From Caldifarciminota bacterium (lineage in GTDB: Bacteria; WOR-3; Hydrothermia; UBA1063; CAJXJZ01), in contig JALTEL010000391.1 in the NCBI GenBank assembly GCA_027073945.1, positions 1 through 7,087 on the forward strand: a stretch of 7,087 bases of DNA. The letters are read 5' to 3'. Within the stretch, counting starts at the first letter, position 1, and each line of letters opens with the position of its first letter. This document shows, piece after piece, positions 813-6,736 of this stretch. The position numbers and the translations under genes are program-made. The notes beneath the pieces were generated by a model. The model saw only the letters and a list, made by a program, of their open reading frames with translations. It was not told the origin of the DNA and ran no database searches.

Positions 813-841
813 TTGAAAGTTCGGTTAACCTAACTTATAAT
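813..841 (+). promoter_or_regulatory. Sigma70-type promoter of the feo operon
   Basis: TTGAAA at 813-818 and TATAAT at 836-841 are separated by exactly 17 bp, giving a near-consensus promoter 22 bp upstream of the first start codon. The expected transcription start is near 848, so the 5' leader is very short. It is the only convincing promoter on the plus strand and probably drives the rightward operon from 863 onward. Confidence 0.85.
817..836. promoter_or_regulatory. DtxR/IdeR/MntR-type operator in the promoter spacer
   Basis: AAGTTCGGTTAACCTAACTT is a 20-bp palindrome matching its own reverse complement at 18 of 20 positions. It contains GGTTAACC with outer AAGTT/AACTT arms, closely resembling the TTAGGTTAGGCTAACCTAA operator type of DtxR-family metal repressors. 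It fills the spacer between -35 and -10 and overlaps both elements by a base or more, so bound repressor would block RNA polymerase. The first gene downstream encodes a DtxR-family repressor, so autoregulation by metal is the simplest reading. Confidence 0.8.
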
Positions 842-862
842 TATACACAAGCGGAGGTATAC

Positions 863-1555
863 ATGGAACTTGGAATGTCTCTTGAAGACTATCTTGAAAG
901 CATTTTCGTGCTGGGGGCAGGTAAAAGACCTGTCAGACTAACGGATATTGCACGGAAATTAAGTGTGAGAAAATCATCCGTTGTTGGTGCTCTGAACAAA
1001 TTGCAATCTGAAAATCTGGTTATACACGAAAGGTATGGAGACGTAATGCTGACCCAAAAAGGCATAGAGGTGGCAAGCAAAGTGTATAAAAAACATCTTG
1101 CTGTTTATGCATTCCTGGCAGAAGTACTCGGTATAGACGATATTGCAGCCAACAGGCAGGCGTGTAATATAGAACATTACATAGCACAAGACACGGCCGA
1201 TAGACTTGATATGTTAGTGAGGTTTGTAAGGTCATGTGAAGAAATGACTAAGCTATTCAAGGATGAATTCAGAAACTTCATTGAACAGGGGATCCTGCCC
1301 TTTCCGTGCAACAAAAAGGAGGTTATTATGATTACTCTTGAAAAATTACATGTCGGTGAAAAGGCTGTTATAAAAAGGATTAACTGTGACCTTCCTATAA
1401 AGTCGAGATTGCTTGCTATGGGCATAGTTCCGGGTGCAGAGGTAATTCTTGAGAAACTTGCCCCTCTTGGCGACCCTATTGATATACTGGTGAAAGGCTA
1501 TCATTTAAGCCTGAGGAAAGAGGAGGCATCTTGTATAGAGGTTGAGAAAAAATGA
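863..1555 (+). CDS. DtxR/MntR-family metal-dependent repressor fused to a FeoA domain
   Basis: The 230-residue protein has three parts. Residues 1-65 are a winged helix-turn-helix (LTDIARKLSVRKSSVVGALNK, then a wing before LTQKG). Residues 66-142 are the metal-binding dimerisation domain. Residues 156-230 are a FeoA/SH3-like domain (ITLEKLHVGEKAVIKRI, LLAMGIVPGAEV). By motif alignment the metal ligands are D9, E12, H78, C101, E104 and H105. D9 matches MntR (Asp8), whereas C101 matches DtxR (Cys102), giving a mixed site; the DtxR ancillary ligands at the E83 and H98 positions appear replaced. It probably represses its own promoter when Fe(II) or Mn(II) is plentiful. The ATG at 863 follows GGAGGT at a proper distance. 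DtxR proteins often carry a C-terminal SH3-like domain, but this one looks like full-length FeoA and has its own internal start. Repressor assignment is strong; the metal preferred is uncertain. Confidence 0.9.
   Translation: MELGMSLEDYLESIFVLGAGKRPVRLTDIARKLSVRKSSVVGALNKLQSENLVIHERYGDVMLTQKGIEVASKVYKKHLAVYAFLAEVLGIDDIAANRQACNIEHYIAQDTADRLDMLVRFVRSCEEMTKLFKDEFRNFIEQGILPFPCNKKEVIMITLEKLHVGEKAVIKRINCDLPIKSRLLAMGIVPGAEVILEKLAPLGDPIDILVKGYHLSLRKEEASCIEVEKK
1316..1330 (+). promoter_or_regulatory. Internal ribosome binding site and ATG within the repressor-FeoA fusion
   Basis: AAGGAGGT at 1316-1323 lies 4 nt before an in-frame ATG at 1328-1330 (Met156 of the fusion). Initiation here would give a separate 75-residue protein beginning MITLEKLHVGEK, which is the usual size and start of stand-alone FeoA. 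The Shine-Dalgarno is encoded by the linker codons for K-K-E-V. This suggests that the gene makes both a repressor-FeoA fusion and free FeoA, or is a recent fusion of two genes that kept the old start site. Confidence 0.6.
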
Positions 1556-1770
1556 TGACCTTTGCCTTTTCAAAATCATGTGATAGAGTCAAAATCTCAG
1601 GCATTGATGGTATAAGAGGTATATACAACAGAACACCAAATACAAGAATAAAAGCAAGGAATATTGTGGAAGCTATTCAAAATAGCATTGGATATATTAT
1701 TATAAAAGGACAATTAATAAGAATCCCTATTGAGTCCAGATTCTATGGGAAAATGCCGATAATTCCGTAG
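1552..1770 (+). CDS. Hypothetical protein, 72 residues, between feoA domain and feoB
   Basis: The ATG at 1552 overlaps the previous stop codon (ATGA), an arrangement typical of translational coupling, and the frame closes 16 bp before feoB, so it fills the gap between the two genes neatly. There is only a weak GAGG-like site upstream. The protein is basic, has one Cys, no signal peptide and no clear membrane segment, and ends KMPIIP. I do not recognise a family. Its position would suit a FeoC-like accessory protein, but no FeoC cysteine cluster or winged helix is visible. Residues 18-50 (IDGIRGI, then a P, basic residues, and YIII) very loosely recall the TusA fold pattern of the gene at 5428, which is too weak to call. 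It could also be a decayed gene. Confidence 0.4.
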   Translation: MMTFAFSKSCDRVKISGIDGIRGIYNRTPNTRIKARNIVEAIQNSIGYIIIKGQLIRIPIESRFYGKMPIIP

Positions 1771-1786
1771 ACAAAGGAGGTTAAAA

Positions 1787-3802
1787 ATGTTCAGGGTAGC
1801 AATAGCAGGAAATCCAAACAGTGGTAAAACTTCTTTATTTAATGCCCTCACAGGACAGAACCAGTATGTTGGTAATTGGCCAGGGGTCACAGTTGAAAAA
1901 AAACAAGGTTATTTTGTTTATAATGGTGAGAAGATAGAGATAACTGACCTTCCTGGCACTTACTCCTTAACACCCTACTCCATTGACGAGCGTATTGCAA
2001 GGGATTACATCCTCAAAGACAGGCCAGACATCGTTGTTATTGTGGCTGATTCAATAAATCTTGAAAGGAATTTCTATCTTCTTCTTGAAGTTCTGCACAT
2101 CCACAGGAATGTGGTACTGGTATTAAATATGAGTGATATCGCCCAAAAAAATGGGATAAATGTTAGACAAATCGAACTTTTTAAAATACTGGGGATTCCA
2201 GTAGTGCAAACAGTCGCTAATAAGGGAATTGGTGTGGAGAAACTTAAAGAAGCCATACACTCAAACTTCAAGAAACAAAACATACTCTATGTGGAGAATT
2301 TAATTAACAAGATTTACAGTAACGAAGTAAGTAAAAGAATTAATGCTCTGTCCAGTATTGTAAAGAAATATGTTGAGGATTATCCTCCAGATTATATTGC
2401 AGTTAAACTGCTTGAAAGGGATGATGAGATGAGGGAAAAGATAATATCCAAGAACAATGGCAAAGTGATATTGCAGGAGGCGGATAGGTTAATAAGAGAA
2501 ATAGAAGAATATAAAAGAGATGATACACCGTCGGTACTTGCAATGGAAAGGTATGCCTTTATTCACGGAGTGTACAAAGAAGTCGTGGAAATTGCAGAAA
2601 CTGTAGAGAAAAAAATAGATGCCACAGACAAAATTGACCGTGTGATGACCAACAGATATCTTGGTATTCCCATTTTTCTCCTTTTGATGTACACAGTCTT
2701 TACGCTTGTTTTTAAACTTGGTGGGCCCTTGAGTGATTTACTGGATTCAGGCATGAGTAAACTTGCAATATTATCTGAAAAAGCATTGTTATCAATTGGA
2801 TTATCAAAGTACATAGTGTCTTTTTTTAGCGACGGGATAATTGCCGGTGTGGGTTCGGTACTTGTATTTCTACCAAGCATAATGATATTGTATCTTCTAC
2901 TTGCCATGCTTGAAGATTCAGGATATATGGCAAGGGCAGCCTTCGTTGTTGACAAAATAATGCACAAGTTTGGTTTACACGGTAAATCAGCCATTCCAAT
3001 GGTTATTTCATTTGGCTGCAATATTCCAGGCATACTGGCAACAAGAACGCTCAAGTCTGAAAAAGATAGGTTGCTTACTATTTTAGTCATACCAATGATT
3101 CCATGCGCTGCAAGATTACCCATATTTATACTATTTGGTTCTGTGTTTTTTAAGAATCACAGTGCACTTTTTGTGTTTATGATGTATGCACTGGGACTGA
3201 CAATGGCTTTTTTATCCTCTATAATCATGAGCAAAGTATTTTTCAAAGGAGAGAGTTCCCCTTTGGTGATGGAATTACCACCATATAGAGTGCCTGATTT
3301 TTCTGTTGTATGGCGAGTAACAAAACAAAGAACATGGATGTTTCTGAAAAAGGCCGGCACATTTATCATGTTAACAGTTGCATTAGTATGGCTACTTGGA
3401 ACCTTACCAGTGGGAGTGGAATATGCATCTCACAAATCTCTGATAGGGGAATTCGGTTCTTTACTGGCTCCAGTATTTCGCCCCATTGGCTTTGGTTTTT
3501 GGCAGGCGACAGTTGCCCTTATTTTCGGTTTTCTTGCCAAGGAGGTTGTTGTCGGCACACTGGGAACTGTTTTCAAAGCGGGGGAAAACACATTGTCCAG
3601 CATTTTACCCGTCTATTTTAGCCATCTTTCTGCCCTGAGTTTTTCAGTATATTCGCTTCTGTATGTGCCCTGTGTGGCAGCCGTGGCCGCAATCTGGAAA
3701 GAGACGAATATAAAATGGGCACTGGTGTCTGTTTTTTACAGTATGACACTGGCATATATCGTTGCTTTTATAATATACAGCATTGGCGGAGTAATTTTAT
3801 GA
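1787..3802 (+). CDS. feoB: Ferrous iron transporter FeoB
   Basis: This 671-residue protein imports Fe(II) across the inner membrane. The N-terminal G domain shows G1 GNPNSGKTS (8-16), a G2 threonine at T35 in NWPGVTVEKK, G3 DLPG (54-57) followed by TYSLTPYSIDE, G4 NMSD (114-117) and a degenerate G5 around 142-147. A helical GDP-dissociation-inhibitor-like region spans about 160-280. The membrane core begins near residue 291 and contains the conserved SFGCNIPG (408-415), PCAARLP (439-445), LAKEVVVGTLG (583-593) and YVPC (626-629) segments, with Cys411, Cys440 and Cys629 in places typical of the family. The length is at the short end of the family and there is no C-terminal cytoplasmic extension. 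AAAGGAGG six to seven bases upstream fixes the start. It probably belongs to the operon controlled from the promoter at 813-841. Confidence 0.97.
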   Translation: MFRVAIAGNPNSGKTSLFNALTGQNQYVGNWPGVTVEKKQGYFVYNGEKIEITDLPGTYSLTPYSIDERIARDYILKDRPDIVVIVADSINLERNFYLLLEVLHIHRNVVLVLNMSDIAQKNGINVRQIELFKILGIPVVQTVANKGIGVEKLKEAIHSNFKKQNILYVENLINKIYSNEVSKRINALSSIVKKYVEDYPPDYIAVKLLERDDEMREKIISKNNGKVILQEADRLIREIEEYKRDDTPSVLAMERYAFIHGVYKEVVEIAETVEKKIDATDKIDRVMTNRYLGIPIFLLLMYTVFTLVFKLGGPLSDLLDSGMSKLAILSEKALLSIGLSKYIVSFFSDGIIAGVGSVLVFLPSIMILYLLLAMLEDSGYMARAAFVVDKIMHKFGLHGKSAIPMVISFGCNIPGILATRTLKSEKDRLLTILVIPMIPCAARLPIFILFGSVFFKNHSALFVFMMYALGLTMAFLSSIIMSKVFFKGESSPLVMELPPYRVPDFSVVWRVTKQRTWMFLKKAGTFIMLTVALVWLLGTLPVGVEYASHKSLIGEFGSLLAPVFRPIGFGFWQATVALIFGFLAKEVVVGTLGTVFKAGENTLSSILPVYFSHLSALSFSVYSLLYVPCVAAVAAIWKETNIKWALVSVFYSMTLAYIVAFIIYSIGGVIL

Positions 3803-3850
3803 TGAATAATGAAAAAGGGGGTAAAAATGAAAAATCGCTTAATTAATCCA

Positions 3851-3902
3851 AGGGGAATACTCGCATCTGAGTCACCAAACAGGAACTTAAGGGTATTCCC
3901 CT
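3851..3902 (+). repeat. Inverted repeat, possible intercistronic RNA hairpin
   Basis: AGGGGAATAC at 3851-3860 is exactly complementary to GTATTCCCCT at 3893-3902, and the stem extends inward by a T-G wobble and a C-G pair. The loop is about 28 bases. The related segment of the intact tusA-like gene (5454-5506) has a shorter 8-bp version. No T-tract follows, so it is not a classic terminator; it may stabilise or process RNA between feoB and the downstream genes. Confidence 0.5.
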
Positions 3903-3923
3903 ATGTATAGACAAAATGACAGC

Positions 3924-3942
3924 TTTTTACACTATGTAAAAA
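3924..3942. repeat. Perfect palindrome TTTTTACA-CTA-TGTAAAAA
   Basis: Two 8-base arms around a 3-base centre lie 53 bp upstream of the FmdE-like gene. The shape would suit either a regulator binding site or a small hairpin. It derives from the 3' end of the tusA-like remnant, whose intact version has a looser palindrome (TTTTTTAC and GTAAAAAA around 6 bases). No convincing -35/-10 pair with normal spacing was found here. Confidence 0.4.
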
Positions 3943-3994
3943 TGGGAGAGTTATAAGGGTAGTTATATTTTAACTTATTAGTAAGGAGGTATTT

Positions 3995-4684
3995 ATGTAC
4001 AAAGAATTTATCAGTGCCGTAATTTTCCTGTCCGCATTGACATCCTCTGGCAATGCAAACTGGGCACAGGAATTTTACGGAGATGTGCCACCCATCAAAA
4101 TCAAAGAACCCTTGGGGGCAATGGTGGGTTCATTGAACCCTGATAATCCTGTTATTGTTATCTCCATCAAGGATGTTGGGCTTTATACAGGACACATCTG
4201 CCCTGGTATTGCGGCAGGATTTAAGGCAACAAGCCTTGCACTTAATGCGCTTTATGGGAAGGAAACACCTGTCCGGGGTAAAATTAGGATAGCGACAAAT
4301 GAGCCCTCTGATTTATTGGATGTAGTTTCATACATTACAGGTGCAAGGGCATTTTATGGAAGGGATGAGGTAAATCATAATGATATTGTTATTGATAAGA
4401 CCTTGGGGGAGAAACCTGGAATAGTTGTTATGGTATTCAAAAGAAAGGACACAGGTAAGATGGTAAAGATTGTATTTAACAAAGCCAAACTCTTTAATCC
4501 AAAAGAGATGAAAAAGATGAAACAAATGAAAGAGAAAGTAATGAAAGGAAAAGCCACTCTAAAAGAAGAAATAACAATGAGAACAAATCTACAGAAAAAG
4601 GTAAAACAGATTTTCTTCAACCTTCCGAAAGGTGCTATAACAGTGGAAGAAATTAAGGACTATAAAATCCCTGACAGGGATTAA
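3995..4684 (+). CDS. Exported FmdE-family (GHxCPG) protein
   Basis: The 229-residue protein opens with a short hydrophobic stretch (residues 7-16, ISAVIFLSAL) and small residues ending near ANWAQ (21-25). This looks like a weak Sec signal peptide, so a periplasmic location is likely but not certain. Residues 60-165 fit the FmdE family (named after a formylmethanofuran dehydrogenase accessory subunit): GHICPGIAAG at 66-75 is the hallmark metal-binding motif, and a D-V-V-S-Y-I-T-G segment (109-116) follows the usual order. The second conserved cysteine of many FmdE proteins is replaced by NEPSD (102-106). Residues 164-208 form a Lys/Met-rich, probably helical extension. GGAGGT five bases upstream sets the start. 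There is no methanogenesis gene here, so formylmethanofuran chemistry is unlikely. The Feo context suggests binding or handling of a metal ion; this is inference. Confidence 0.75.
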   Translation: MYKEFISAVIFLSALTSSGNANWAQEFYGDVPPIKIKEPLGAMVGSLNPDNPVIVISIKDVGLYTGHICPGIAAGFKATSLALNALYGKETPVRGKIRIATNEPSDLLDVVSYITGARAFYGRDEVNHNDIVIDKTLGEKPGIVVMVFKRKDTGKMVKIVFNKAKLFNPKEMKKMKQMKEKVMKGKATLKEEITMRTNLQKKVKQIFFNLPKGAITVEEIKDYKIPDRD

Positions 4685-4696
4685 AAAGGAGGTAAA

Positions 4697-5410
4697 ATGG
4701 TAAAATTAACGGATGTGAAGCCAGGAACAAGGGTAATAGTAAGAAGGATTGATGGGGTAGAAGTAAAAAAACACCTTGAGGACATTGGTATAAGAGAGGG
4801 AATAGACCTCAAAATAGTAGGTACAGAATTACACCATAAACATAAAGGACCAATTTGTATTAAGATATCTGATTCTGATAAGGAAGTAATTATCCCACAG
4901 GGAATAGCAGATAAGACAAACCTTGATAAAGGTGGACAAGAAGTCTCGCTCCTCGCGTTGGAACAAGGTGATAAAGGGATTGTTAAAAACATTCAAAGTG
5001 GTGAAGCAATGACATTATTGAATGAATTAGGCATTATGGGAGGTGCAGAAATAGAATTTGCGAGGCATATGCCAGATGATACACTTGTATTTAAGATTGA
5101 GGAAAGGGAGATGAGAGTTGGCGAAGGTGAAGCAGCAAAAATACTCGTAGAATTGGAAGGAAAGCGTATTCAGGCAAACTACGTTAAAGAAGGCATTGAG
5201 ACCACTATTGTCAAGATAATCGGCGGGATTGAATATGGGCATAAATTTGAAGGTATTGGACTTAAAGAAGGTACAAATATTACCCTACTTAAAAAAGAGG
5301 CACATCCACCATCTGCCCTCAGAGGAAGATATATCCGGGCGAAGATAGGTGAAGAATTGATTACCGTTGGACACGGATTAGCAGAGAAAGTCTGGGTAGA
5401 GAGTACATGA
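4697..5410 (+). CDS. Protein of three tandem FeoA domains
   Basis: The 237-residue protein consists almost entirely of three FeoA/SH3-like repeats. Domain 1 (about 1-75) has LTDVKPGTRVIVRRIDG and LEDIGIREG. Domain 2 (about 82-154) has LLALEQGDKGIVKNIQSG and LNELGIMGG. Domain 3 (about 158-237) has a diverged start, then KFEGIGLKEG and a C-terminal VGHGLAEKVWVE. FeoA is normally a single cytoplasmic domain of about 75 residues that binds FeoB and supports its assembly or activity. Here one polypeptide offers three copies, in addition to the FeoA domain on the repressor. No signal peptide, membrane segment or cysteine other than C54 is present. A good SD (AAAGGAGG) precedes the ATG, 12 bp after the FmdE-like gene, so both are in one operon. 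It may bridge a FeoB trimer; that is speculation. Confidence 0.88.
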   Translation: MVKLTDVKPGTRVIVRRIDGVEVKKHLEDIGIREGIDLKIVGTELHHKHKGPICIKISDSDKEVIIPQGIADKTNLDKGGQEVSLLALEQGDKGIVKNIQSGEAMTLLNELGIMGGAEIEFARHMPDDTLVFKIEEREMRVGEGEAAKILVELEGKRIQANYVKEGIETTIVKIIGGIEYGHKFEGIGLKEGTNITLLKKEAHPPSALRGRYIRAKIGEELITVGHGLAEKVWVEST

Positions 5411-5427
5411 TAAAAAGGAGGTGAAAA

Positions 5428-5670
5428 ATGGGAGAGCGTTTGATTGATGTAAGGGGAATACCTGCTTCTCTTAGACCCAAAAGGGTCAAACAGGGACTTA
5501 AGGGTATTCCTGCTGGTGAGCAGGTTAAGATTATCTCCGATGATGAAAGGATGCAGAAACTTGCTCCCAAAATGGTAGCCTCTATAGGTGATACTGACTT
5601 TATTAGTGTGTATAAAGGTGATGATGGGCTTTTTTACACAATCGTAAAAAACAATAAAAAAGGAGGATGA
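5428..5670 (+). CDS. TusA/SirA-like protein lacking the catalytic cysteine
   Basis: This 80-residue protein follows the TusA plan: DVRGIP near the start (7-12), a first helix, KGIPAGEQVKIISDD (25-39) matching the usual 'G-E-x-(L/V)-x-I-x-x-D-D' strand, a second helix, and a C-terminal strand DGLFYTIVKN (66-75). TusA proteins pass sulfur as a persulfide on the cysteine of a CPxP motif. Here that region reads ASLRP, and the protein has no cysteine at all, so sulfur transfer by the known mechanism is excluded. It probably acts by binding a protein or ligand. AAAGGAGGT precedes the ATG by six bases, 17 bp after the triple-FeoA gene. A deleted sister copy lies at about 3827-3945. The first 80 bases contain inverted repeats (GGAATACC/GGTATTCC and GACCC-AAAA-GGGTC). 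Confidence 0.78.
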   Translation: MGERLIDVRGIPASLRPKRVKQGLKGIPAGEQVKIISDDERMQKLAPKMVASIGDTDFISVYKGDDGLFYTIVKNNKKGG

Positions 5671-5675
5671 TAATG
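5660..5675 (+). promoter_or_regulatory. Ribosome binding site that fixes the start of the barrel gene at 5673
   Basis: AAGGAGG at 5660-5666 directly abuts an ATG at 5667 and lies six bases before a second in-frame ATG at 5673. An SD with no spacer cannot work, so 5673 is the real start. It also gives the cleaner signal peptide (MKKSLIK...). The SD lies inside the last codons of the upstream TusA-like gene, whose TGA is at 5668-5670, so the two genes are probably coupled. Confidence 0.8.
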
Positions 5676-6662
5676 AAAAAATCTTTAATAAAACTCTGGA
5701 TATTTGGATTAGGATTGTTTTTTGTTTTTGTTCCTTCAGGAAAGGTGTTTGCTGGTGACCCTATAATTGGATGCCCCCTTGGAGTGGAAAAAGGTAAGGT
5801 GTGGCTTTTTTCAAGAACATCTTACTTCAAAGCAACAAAGGCATACTGGAATGAAAACCCCACAGAAAGCCCTGTAATGGTAAATATGCCAGAAGGCTGG
5901 CATGCAAAGATATTGAAGACAAGTTACAGAACAGAGTTTGGTGTCACTGATAGGCTTTCCATGGGAGTACTCCTCACATATTGGGATAAGGATATATCTA
6001 AAGAAGTATGGAAACAAAAACCTGATAGTTCCTATATGAAAAAATCAGTTTCTTACCGTGCCTATGGATTTGGCGATATCTGGACTATTGGACTTTTCAA
6101 ATTGGTAAAGGAACATCCGATATTTGAGGCTATTTCCGTAGGTCTTGGTTATAAATTGGATGCGGCAGATAATTCTCTGGTTGTTCATGGCGTTGGCACA
6201 GGGTCAAAGGATGCACGGTTTGCCTTTCTTACGCACGATAATATAAACAAAAGAATTCACCTGTGTACATCCCTCTGGTATGAGTATAGAGGGAAAATAA
6301 GGGACATAGAAGTGAAAAATGACCAGGGACAATATGTGGAATGGGAAAAATCCGGTAGAGATATTGGAGATGCCTTTGGATACAATATAAACACAGAGGT
6401 CCATCTGGATAAAGATGAACACTACCAGATTGTACCTACTTTTGTAGGTTGGAAAAAGTTTGCGGACAAAGACAAGGATGGTAATCAGGTGAAAAATTCC
6501 GAATTCTACAATTATTCAACAGGAGTAATGTTCATGTATTTGCCTCATGGAGAGGAATGTGACCACTGCAAATTTATGATAGGTGGAAAAACCCCTATAA
6601 AATCAGTTAATTCCTTCAGTGCTTTATTCTCTCTGCAAATTGGGGCGATGTGGACATTTTAA
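5673..6662 (+). CDS. Outer-membrane beta-barrel, porin/transporter-like
   Basis: The 329-residue protein starts with a classic Sec signal peptide: MKK, a hydrophobic core to about residue 20, and likely cleavage after VFA (25-27) before GDP. The mature part alternates polar and aromatic residues in short beta-like stretches (for example WLFSRTSYFKATKAYW, SMGVLLTYWDKD, AISVGLGYKLD, LCTSLWYEYRG, GVMFMYLP). It ends in FSLQIGAMWTF, whose terminal aromatic residue fits the BAM recognition signal of outer-membrane proteins. The overall style recalls the MetA-pathway/phenol-degradation transporter-like barrels, but I cannot assign the family firmly. A loop near 292-300 carries HGEECDHCK, with Cys296, His298 and Cys299 as possible metal or disulfide ligands; another cysteine is at 34. 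As the last operon gene it may let Fe(II) or another substrate through the outer membrane (inferred). Confidence 0.75.
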   Translation: MKKSLIKLWIFGLGLFFVFVPSGKVFAGDPIIGCPLGVEKGKVWLFSRTSYFKATKAYWNENPTESPVMVNMPEGWHAKILKTSYRTEFGVTDRLSMGVLLTYWDKDISKEVWKQKPDSSYMKKSVSYRAYGFGDIWTIGLFKLVKEHPIFEAISVGLGYKLDAADNSLVVHGVGTGSKDARFAFLTHDNINKRIHLCTSLWYEYRGKIRDIEVKNDQGQYVEWEKSGRDIGDAFGYNINTEVHLDKDEHYQIVPTFVGWKKFADKDKDGNQVKNSEFYNYSTGVMFMYLPHGEECDHCKFMIGGKTPIKSVNSFSALFSLQIGAMWTF

Positions 6663-6704: not shown

Positions 6705-6736
6705 ACTGCCCTCTCTATCTTAATAGAGGGGGCAGT
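6705..6736. terminator. Intrinsic terminator hairpin, probably bidirectional
   Basis: ACTGCCCTCTCTAT (6705-6718) and ATAGAGGGGGCAGT (6723-6736) form a 14-bp stem with one T-G wobble and a CTTA loop, 43 bp after the barrel gene stop. On the plus strand only a short TGTTAAGT follows, so rightward termination may be incomplete. On the minus strand the hairpin is followed by TTGTTTTTTACTT, a good U-tract, so it would terminate leftward transcripts well. This arrangement fits convergent transcription with the minus-strand traces to its right. Confidence 0.7.

Follow-up and report, generated by a model that had tools for sequence, protein, structure and literature searches.

Contig JALTEL010000391.1 of the Caldifarciminota bacterium assembly GCA_027073945.1 (7,087 nucleotides (nt), taken whole and called the window below) carries a cluster of seven genes which, according to the list of open reading frames (ORFs) and a Pfam scan of the window, fill positions 863-6662 of the + strand. 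Repressor and FeoB genes stand in its first half, and the second half encodes an FmdE-like protein, a three-domain FeoA, a TusA-like protein and a predicted outer-membrane barrel. The best reading of the cluster is a Feo-type operon for the uptake of Fe(II), possibly Mn, supplemented with a putative periplasmic metal handler and outer-membrane port. The Feo core is already known; new here is an operon variant with proposed outer-membrane and periplasmic steps. The features are as follows:

813..841, + strand: sigma-70-like promoter (11/12 consensus match) with a 16-base-pair inverted repeat in the spacer, read as a candidate DtxR/MntR operator
863..1555, + strand: DtxR/MntR repressor with a C-terminal FeoA domain, 230 residues (Pfam, alignment of MntR ligands)
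1552..1770, + strand: apparently eroded FeoA (orf72), 72 residues (identity to FeoA of G061 and G062; no Pfam match)
1787..3802, + strand: FeoB, GTPase-linked inner-membrane permease for Fe(II)/metal, 671 residues (Pfam, TIGR00437)
3812..3899, + strand: decayed remnant of the 5′ part of a tusA-like gene (alignment score against shuffles)
3995..4684, + strand: FmdE-core protein with an export-like N-terminus, 229 residues, likely a periplasmic metal-binding accessory (Pfam, fold match)
4697..5410, + strand: three-domain FeoA, 237 residues, without an export signal (Pfam; conserved H47, H49, H124)
5428..5670, + strand: Cys-less TusA-fold-like protein, 80 residues (weak Pfam TusA match, homologue in L001)
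5667..6662, + strand: predicted 12-strand outer-membrane beta-barrel, FapF/COG4313-like, 331 residues (AlphaFold model, fold match)
6705..6736, + strand: 14-pair hairpin without a T-run (z = -5.7 for a 71-nt piece)

All six genes named in a preliminary description of this DNA are present on the + strand with the boundaries given above, as seen by Pfam and, for the barrel, in the AlphaFold model; that gene list was right as far as it went but missed the eroded FeoA. The intergenic distances along the cluster are -4, 16, 192, 12, 17, and -4 nt, so that the short gaps described earlier are real except for the 192 nt between feoB and fmdE, the sole wide gap. The cluster appears to be delimited by the promoter–operator region upstream and the strong hairpin downstream, the latter probably marking the transcript's 3′ end. 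No Rfam elements were found in a scan of the window.

FeoB has the full domain set of the family (FeoB_N, Gate, FeoB_C, and FeoB_Cyto in Pfam) and scores 637 bits with TIGR00437 (cut-off 315.65). The FeoB architecture, the FeoA domains, and the repressor gene in front resemble the known DtxR/MntR-FeoA-FeoB operons, whereas the three-domain FeoA, the exported FmdE, the TusA-like protein, and the barrel are additions to that plan, and the single FeoA is eroded. The closest relatives of this core, in genomes G061 and G062, share its order dtxR-feoA, feoA, feoB (feoB is split over two contigs in each); their repressors are 57-58% and their FeoB proteins 53-69% identical to those of the window, with 58% for the repressor of G062 and 69% for the C-terminal part of FeoB of G061.

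The operon is preceded by the promoter-like sequence TTGAAA-17-TATAAT, one of two such good matches in the window, where promoter-like sites are not commoner overall than expected by chance (26 observed against 23.1). Its spacer is filled by the inverted repeat at 819-834 and carries AGTTCGGTTAACCTAACT; no other ungapped 18-mer in the window is palindromic at 8 or more of 9 positions. In G061 (L098) and G062 (L114), the corresponding gene is preceded by a counterpart, TGTTCGATTAATCTAACA, which also sits between promoter-like hexamers, as judged by eye. The two versions differ by symmetric G-to-A and C-to-T changes that alter both arms together, as is expected of an operator. Among 18 upstream regions of dtxR-type genes compared, the element is common to the window, G061, and G062; the region in L101 bears TTAGGTATACCTAA, and several others contain TTAG...CTAA-like pairs by eye. 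A palindromic candidate operator is thus present, as far as the sequence alone tells, at the promoter of the repressor itself, and its occurrence at the same place with matching arm changes in two relatives makes metal-controlled autoregulation of the operon by its DtxR/MntR-FeoA repressor likely.

The repressor consists of Fe_dep_repress, Fe_dep_repr_C, and FeoA domains, its helix-turn-helix part (PF01325, 43.7 bits) and metal-binding/dimerisation part (PF02742, 57.9 bits) both exceeding the cut-off. Its residues D9, E12, H78, C101, E104, and H105 align with the metal ligands of Bacillus subtilis MntR as listed in PMC4805248, with Cys in place of Glu99 of MntR. PgMntR of Porphyromonas gingivalis has Cys at the equivalent place, binds both Mn and Fe, and acts on FB2, a Mn transporter gene whose promoter it binds (PMC4805248). 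Like the window protein, PgMntR is a DtxR-FeoA fusion with an Asp/Cys/Glu/His metal site; it differs in carrying two FeoA domains instead of one and in its target, since the candidate operator in the window belongs to the repressor's own operon rather than to FB2 (PMC4805248). Given the hybrid Fe/Mn site, both Fe(II) and Mn(II) are possible as corepressor.

This bears on a reading that overlaps with the preferred one and concerns the metal only, namely that the cluster is a manganese or zinc system with a Meo-like FeoB. The PgMntR-like site (Asp9, Cys101, Glu104, His105; PMC4805248) speaks for it, as do carriers of the ZIP family near FmdE in six loci (L006, L012, and L055 by Pfam; L049, L054, and L056 by phmmer). 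However, the permease scores as FeoB with TIGR00437, and no Mn-specific feature was found in the cluster. A Mn or Zn rather than iron system is unlikely.

FeoA is represented in the window by three potential FeoB partners, the domain on the repressor, orf72, and the three-domain protein. Orf72 keeps the length and place of the Pfam-positive FeoA of G061 and G062 (37.5% and 31.5% end-to-end identity, respectively). The RLxxMG stretch typical of FeoA is missing from it, which is consistent with replacement of the eroded single FeoA by the triple one, as we infer. In the triple protein, Pfam recognises FeoA in three stretches (88.5 bits); the solved 162-residue chain 2k5i matches two of the three domains, and double FeoA proteins occur in the relatives L106 and L108. 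His47, His49, and His124 are conserved with its relatives in the alignment and could form a metal site. Of the 25 database relatives of the triple FeoA, all four that bear organism names are archaeal (Methanosarcinales, Methanophagales, Halobacteriota, and Methanospirareceae). Methanophagales are the archaea of the ANME-1 (anaerobic methanotrophic archaea 1) group. A survey of 147 genomes of the WOR-3-type (Caldifarciminota) phylum yielded no triple FeoA of full length, the matches there spanning one or two domains, and viral contigs and plasmids gave no match. With its archaeal relatives, the protein looks like a later addition to the operon; in the tree the window forms a long single branch (0.88), which gives no direction of transfer. 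Multiple FeoA proteins per operon have been named as meriting study in a paper on Feo phylogeny (PMC8749426).

The FmdE-like protein matches PF02663 with 48.7 bits (cut-off 22.9) and has the FmdE core fold and the G-H-x-C-P motif in common with the solved family members 2glz, 2gvi, and 3d00 (PMC2954224). It differs from them in the export-like N-terminus (a putative signal peptide judged by eye), in Thr instead of the first His, and in lacking the second Cys, the zinc finger, and an fmd/fwd operon. His67 and Cys69 are retained as two of the four known metal ligands, and Asp109 is invariant. The incomplete site does not exclude the protein from the family, since 3d00 also lacks the N-domain zinc. 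A profile search against PDB sequences gave nothing at E values up to 0.1, and a second profile only chance matches; with a wider profile the metal motif could be matched to 2glz (E 0.88), an alignment that served only to place the His and Cys residues. A role in methanogenesis as subunit E of formylmethanofuran dehydrogenase was rejected, because the C-terminal zinc finger is missing (there are no further Cys residues) and the window contains no fmd or fwd genes. Among plasmids, 32 records matched, none covering 80% of the query and all below 60% identity, with 27-36% among the 20 of the 32 matches listed. Genes of the family have been noted beside metal-ion transporters (PMC2954224). In the open-licence literature, no paper was found that links FmdE with FeoB or connects iron transport with subunit E of formylmethanofuran dehydrogenase.

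The last gene of the cluster encodes a protein ending in MWTF that matches no Pfam or NCBIfam family and no viral contig. Its AlphaFold model is a 12-strand barrel like those of FapF and the COG4313 channels (4rl8, 5o65), with 9-11% identity in the fold matches. The known COG4313/FapF proteins deal with aromatics, sphingosine, or amyloid, whereas barrels of the window type are linked to FeoB or FmdE.

The gene between the triple FeoA and the barrel overlaps the latter and resembles tusA weakly (18.4 bits, below the cut-off of 28.6). The catalytic Cys of TusA sits in a CPxP motif; the window protein contains no Cys at all, and sulfur transfer of the TusA kind was ruled out on this ground. A likewise Cys-less homologue of 72 residues (76% identity) is encoded ahead of the barrel in L001 (6376-6594), and such a gene was clearly found in 1/147 genomes of the phylum. 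The piece at 3812-3899, immediately after feoB, aligns to the intact gene with a score of 60, where 300 shuffles reached no more than 28, and contains a 24-mer that is 96% identical to it. This decayed copy is apparently a sign of past rearrangement.

How the cluster was assembled may be judged from the relatives of its parts. The window FmdE is 81% identical to that of L003, a WOR-3 metagenome-assembled genome labelled Caldifarciminota. The window barrel is 88% identical to the barrel that directly follows fmdE in L003, 63% to that of L001, and 30% to that of G062, where the barrel gene comes directly after feoB; G061 has no barrel at this place, and neither G061 nor G062 gave an FmdE match. 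In L001, a DUF6512 gene comes after fmdE, and the tusA-like gene and a frame-broken barrel follow in turn; it is labelled Pseudomonadota, yet its genome is placed in the phylum of that of L002. The closeness of the window barrel to the fmdE-linked one of L003 and its distance from that of G062 suggest that an fmdE-barrel cassette and a dtxR-feo core came together in the window.

Pairs of these parts recur elsewhere. In the WOR-3-type survey, the barrel is found in 8/147 genomes, in three of which (G062, G078, and G134) its gene is directly 3′ of feoB, while in G001 and G002 it adjoins fmdE; its neighbours in G032 are a FeMo-co-type protein (a weak phmmer match) and what looks by eye like a regulator of the ArsR kind. 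In the LCP-89 group the barrel occurs in 2/39 genomes, G952 and G950, the former of which (L174) has the order DtxR-FeoB-barrel in a phylum other than Caldifarciminota/WOR-3; in the phylum of G004 it occurs in 2/217 genomes as partial matches only. FmdE is found at 12 places in 10/147 WOR-3-type genomes, seven of which lie within 10 kb of FeoB (G153, G154, G005, G145, G093, G026, and G078); the other five comprise three on contigs shorter than 9 kb, one about 15 kb from FeoB, and one without FeoB on a 12-kb contig. The FmdE loci fall into a window type (16 loci, 14 from a scan of genome contigs with two peptide patterns plus L144 and L145) and a second branch (8 loci, L049-L051 and L053-L057), in which FeoB is near FmdE at 7/8 loci. 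A single run in G078 (L053:9924-18457) encodes a repressor-FeoA protein, FeoB, a barrel, a FeMo-co-type protein, HmuY, a TonB receptor, and FmdE, as well as a DUF4491-like protein (below cut-off). The FmdE-FeoB pairing has a rough binomial probability of 3e-4 to 5e-7 and the FeoB-barrel pairing one of 1e-4 to 7e-6, figures that ignore kinship and the post-hoc choice of distance.

Gene content and order, conservation of the operator, fold matches, and the recurrence of FeoB-barrel, FmdE-FeoB, and FmdE-barrel neighbours are the basis for the preferred reading, that a diderm bacterium here has a Feo-type uptake operon which is repressed by metal and has gained an envelope extension. We hold it tentatively, at slightly below even likelihood. 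At low cytosolic Fe(II) or Mn, the DtxR/MntR-FeoA repressor would leave the operator at 819-834 and allow transcription. A metal ion or small complex would enter the periplasm via the 12-strand barrel and be bound weakly by the exported FmdE near His67/Cys69, a site perhaps completed by Asp109; FmdE would then present the metal to FeoB, which, by family knowledge, carries it across the inner membrane. The triple FeoA, perhaps with its own His metal site, would take the place of the eroded FeoA as the cytosolic partner of FeoB, and the Cys-less TusA-like protein may be a non-catalytic adaptor. A stronger version seems doubtful. In it, the cluster would be an importer dedicated to moving Fe(II)/Mn(II) across both membranes, with the barrel and a periplasmic FmdE chaperone co-regulated with FeoB; the triple FeoA, which has a His site of its own and is shared with archaea of the Methanophagales type, would have replaced the eroded FeoA and provide FeoB with three covalently joined FeoA units.

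A number of observations weigh against the preferred reading. The complete set of four downstream genes was present in no other locus examined. FeoB is near FmdE in only 2/16 window-type loci, several of them on short contigs (it lies 93 nt upstream of FmdE in L005 and one small ORF upstream in L004). Identity to the window barrel is only 27-31% for the barrels that follow FeoB in G062, G078, and G134; the barrel is near neither FeoB nor FmdE in G135 and G136, whose contigs measure 5 to 11 kb, and in G950 it has no Feo nearby. The FmdE-barrel pair of L001 and L003 is without Feo on their short contigs. The barrel profile, which finds G001 and G002, gave 0/18 in further FmdE-bearing genomes. 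FmdE was detected in 7/395, 16/247, and 2/149 genomes from the phyla of G011, G004, and G012, the three centres included, and FeoB matched in 0/25 FmdE regions taken from these phyla; the link to Feo thus does not reach into the remote branches of FmdE. As to the proteins, the His-x-His-x-Cys plus Cys site of 2glz/2gvi is not found in the window FmdE, the first His being Thr65 and the second Cys absent, so that metal binding by such a partial ligand set is only putative. The mean pLDDT (predicted local distance difference test) of the barrel model is 70.5. COG4313 channels are tied to hydrophobic molecules, and its authors consider Pput2725 unlikely to serve hydrophilic ones (PMC4493636); these ties, together with amyloid export by FapF, do not favour a metal port. 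Finally, the 192-nt gap could house a second promoter.

Several of these points would equally suit a chance association, in which the barrel and FmdE serve, e.g., the uptake of hydrophobic compounds (the substrates linked to COG4313 in PMC4493636) and a mobile cassette has landed behind feoB. The Feo-free FmdE-barrel pairs, the scarcity of FeoB at window-type FmdE loci, a transposase-like ORF (by eye) flanking the cluster, and the rearrangement marked by the decayed tusA-like piece agree with it. Chance does not readily explain why FeoB-barrel neighbours occur in two phyla, albeit with a different barrel branch, or why FmdE and FeoB are neighbours in the second FmdE branch, and we regard it as unlikely. 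The FmdE-FeoB link is, however, strong only in that branch, which lowers confidence in the operon with an envelope extension and slightly raises it in the chance association and in the chelate route considered next.

A TonB receptor is a commoner neighbour of FmdE than either FeoB or the barrel, being present in 15/24 loci overall. Within about 5 kb it is found at 9/16 window-type loci (L002, L003, L005, L007, L009, L013, L014, L144, and L145; 9/18 once two weaker matches without a receptor, L146 and L150, are counted in) and near FmdE at 6/8 second-type loci (L050, L051, L053, L054, L056, and L057, with L054 by phmmer only). In L144 and L145, two of the 25 regions from the phyla of G011, G004, and G012, the receptor is beside FmdE and confirmed by Pfam, and L149 has a TonB-like ORF. 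HmuY is encoded in L053, L056, and L014. An exported CbiX/CbiK-like chelatase homologue is close to FmdE in L007, L009, L012, and L014 (in the last three as the next gene; the FmdE gene of L014 is broken); L007, L009, and L014 also have the TonB receptor and L012 a ZIP carrier. These neighbours point to a route in which exported FmdE strips or reduces the metal of haem, a ferric chelate, or another complex delivered by an outer-membrane receptor, the freed ion being imported by FeoB or ZIP; in the window, the barrel would stand in for the usual TonB receptor. Stenotrophomonas offers a known case of a receptor combined with Feo, the substrate being ferric citrate (PMC9047314). On the other hand, the window encodes no TonB receptor, HmuY, or CbiX, barrels of the COG4313 kind lack energy coupling, and haem or reductase chemistry is not known for FmdE. 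On balance, a chelate route is unlikely.

The preferred reading, of a Feo-type operon with an envelope extension, is plausible, and pairs of its parts recur, but not as the single module proposed at first. The view that the four downstream genes form one conserved module is not supported, the more so as the triple FeoA and the TusA-like gene are so rare in the phylum and FeoB so infrequent at window-type FmdE loci. Conservation across phyla is borne out for FeoB-barrel neighbours (two phyla) and, within the WOR-3-type phylum, for FmdE-FeoB (7/12), while the exact set was found in the window only, in keeping with the initial impression that its composition has no known parallel.

Feo is a very widespread importer of Fe(II). 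Passage of Fe(II) through the outer membrane and periplasm is usually ascribed to general porins, and the FeoB-barrel linkage names a candidate for the outer-membrane step. In E. coli, OmpC works with FeoB in iron uptake, and this OmpC/OmpF-FeoB route likewise joins an outer-membrane protein to FeoB; the E. coli porins are unlinked and general, whereas the window barrel is gene-linked and accompanied by a putatively periplasmic FmdE (PMC7315122). The FciTABC/FeoABI route of Stenotrophomonas, in which a ferric-citrate receptor is coupled to FeoABI, also combines an outer-membrane protein with FeoB in iron uptake, but the window has a linked barrel and a putative periplasmic FmdE instead of such a receptor (PMC9047314). 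Exported FmdE beside TonB receptors, FeoB, and ZIP is a candidate for the periplasmic step, and this branch of a family of unclear function thereby gains a testable role. Partners recurring beside FeoB in little-known bacteria suggest a dedicated route through both membranes; no paper on Caldifarciminota and iron was found in the open-licence literature.

Some further arrangements around fmdE were observed. The run in L053 brings genes for haem and Fe(II) uptake together. L051 and L054, both from the WOR-3-type phylum, have the same order of a Fur-like regulator (by eye), FeoA-like protein, FeoB, flavodoxin-like protein, a 108-residue protein (which Pfam assigns to DUF2023 only in L051), and FmdE. 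A family of exported proteins or lipoproteins accompanies exported FmdE and a TonB receptor in different lineages (L002:2976-3716, L013:2311-3153, and L145:4983-5747).

At the edges of the window, a leftward transposase/integrase-like ORF (1-771, - strand; by eye, with no Pfam family above cut-off) is cut by the window edge and adjoins the operon promoter. At the other end, the - strand between 7034 and 6960 bears, by eye, a good ribosome site and an ATG (at about 7015) followed by a stop after only 18 codons.

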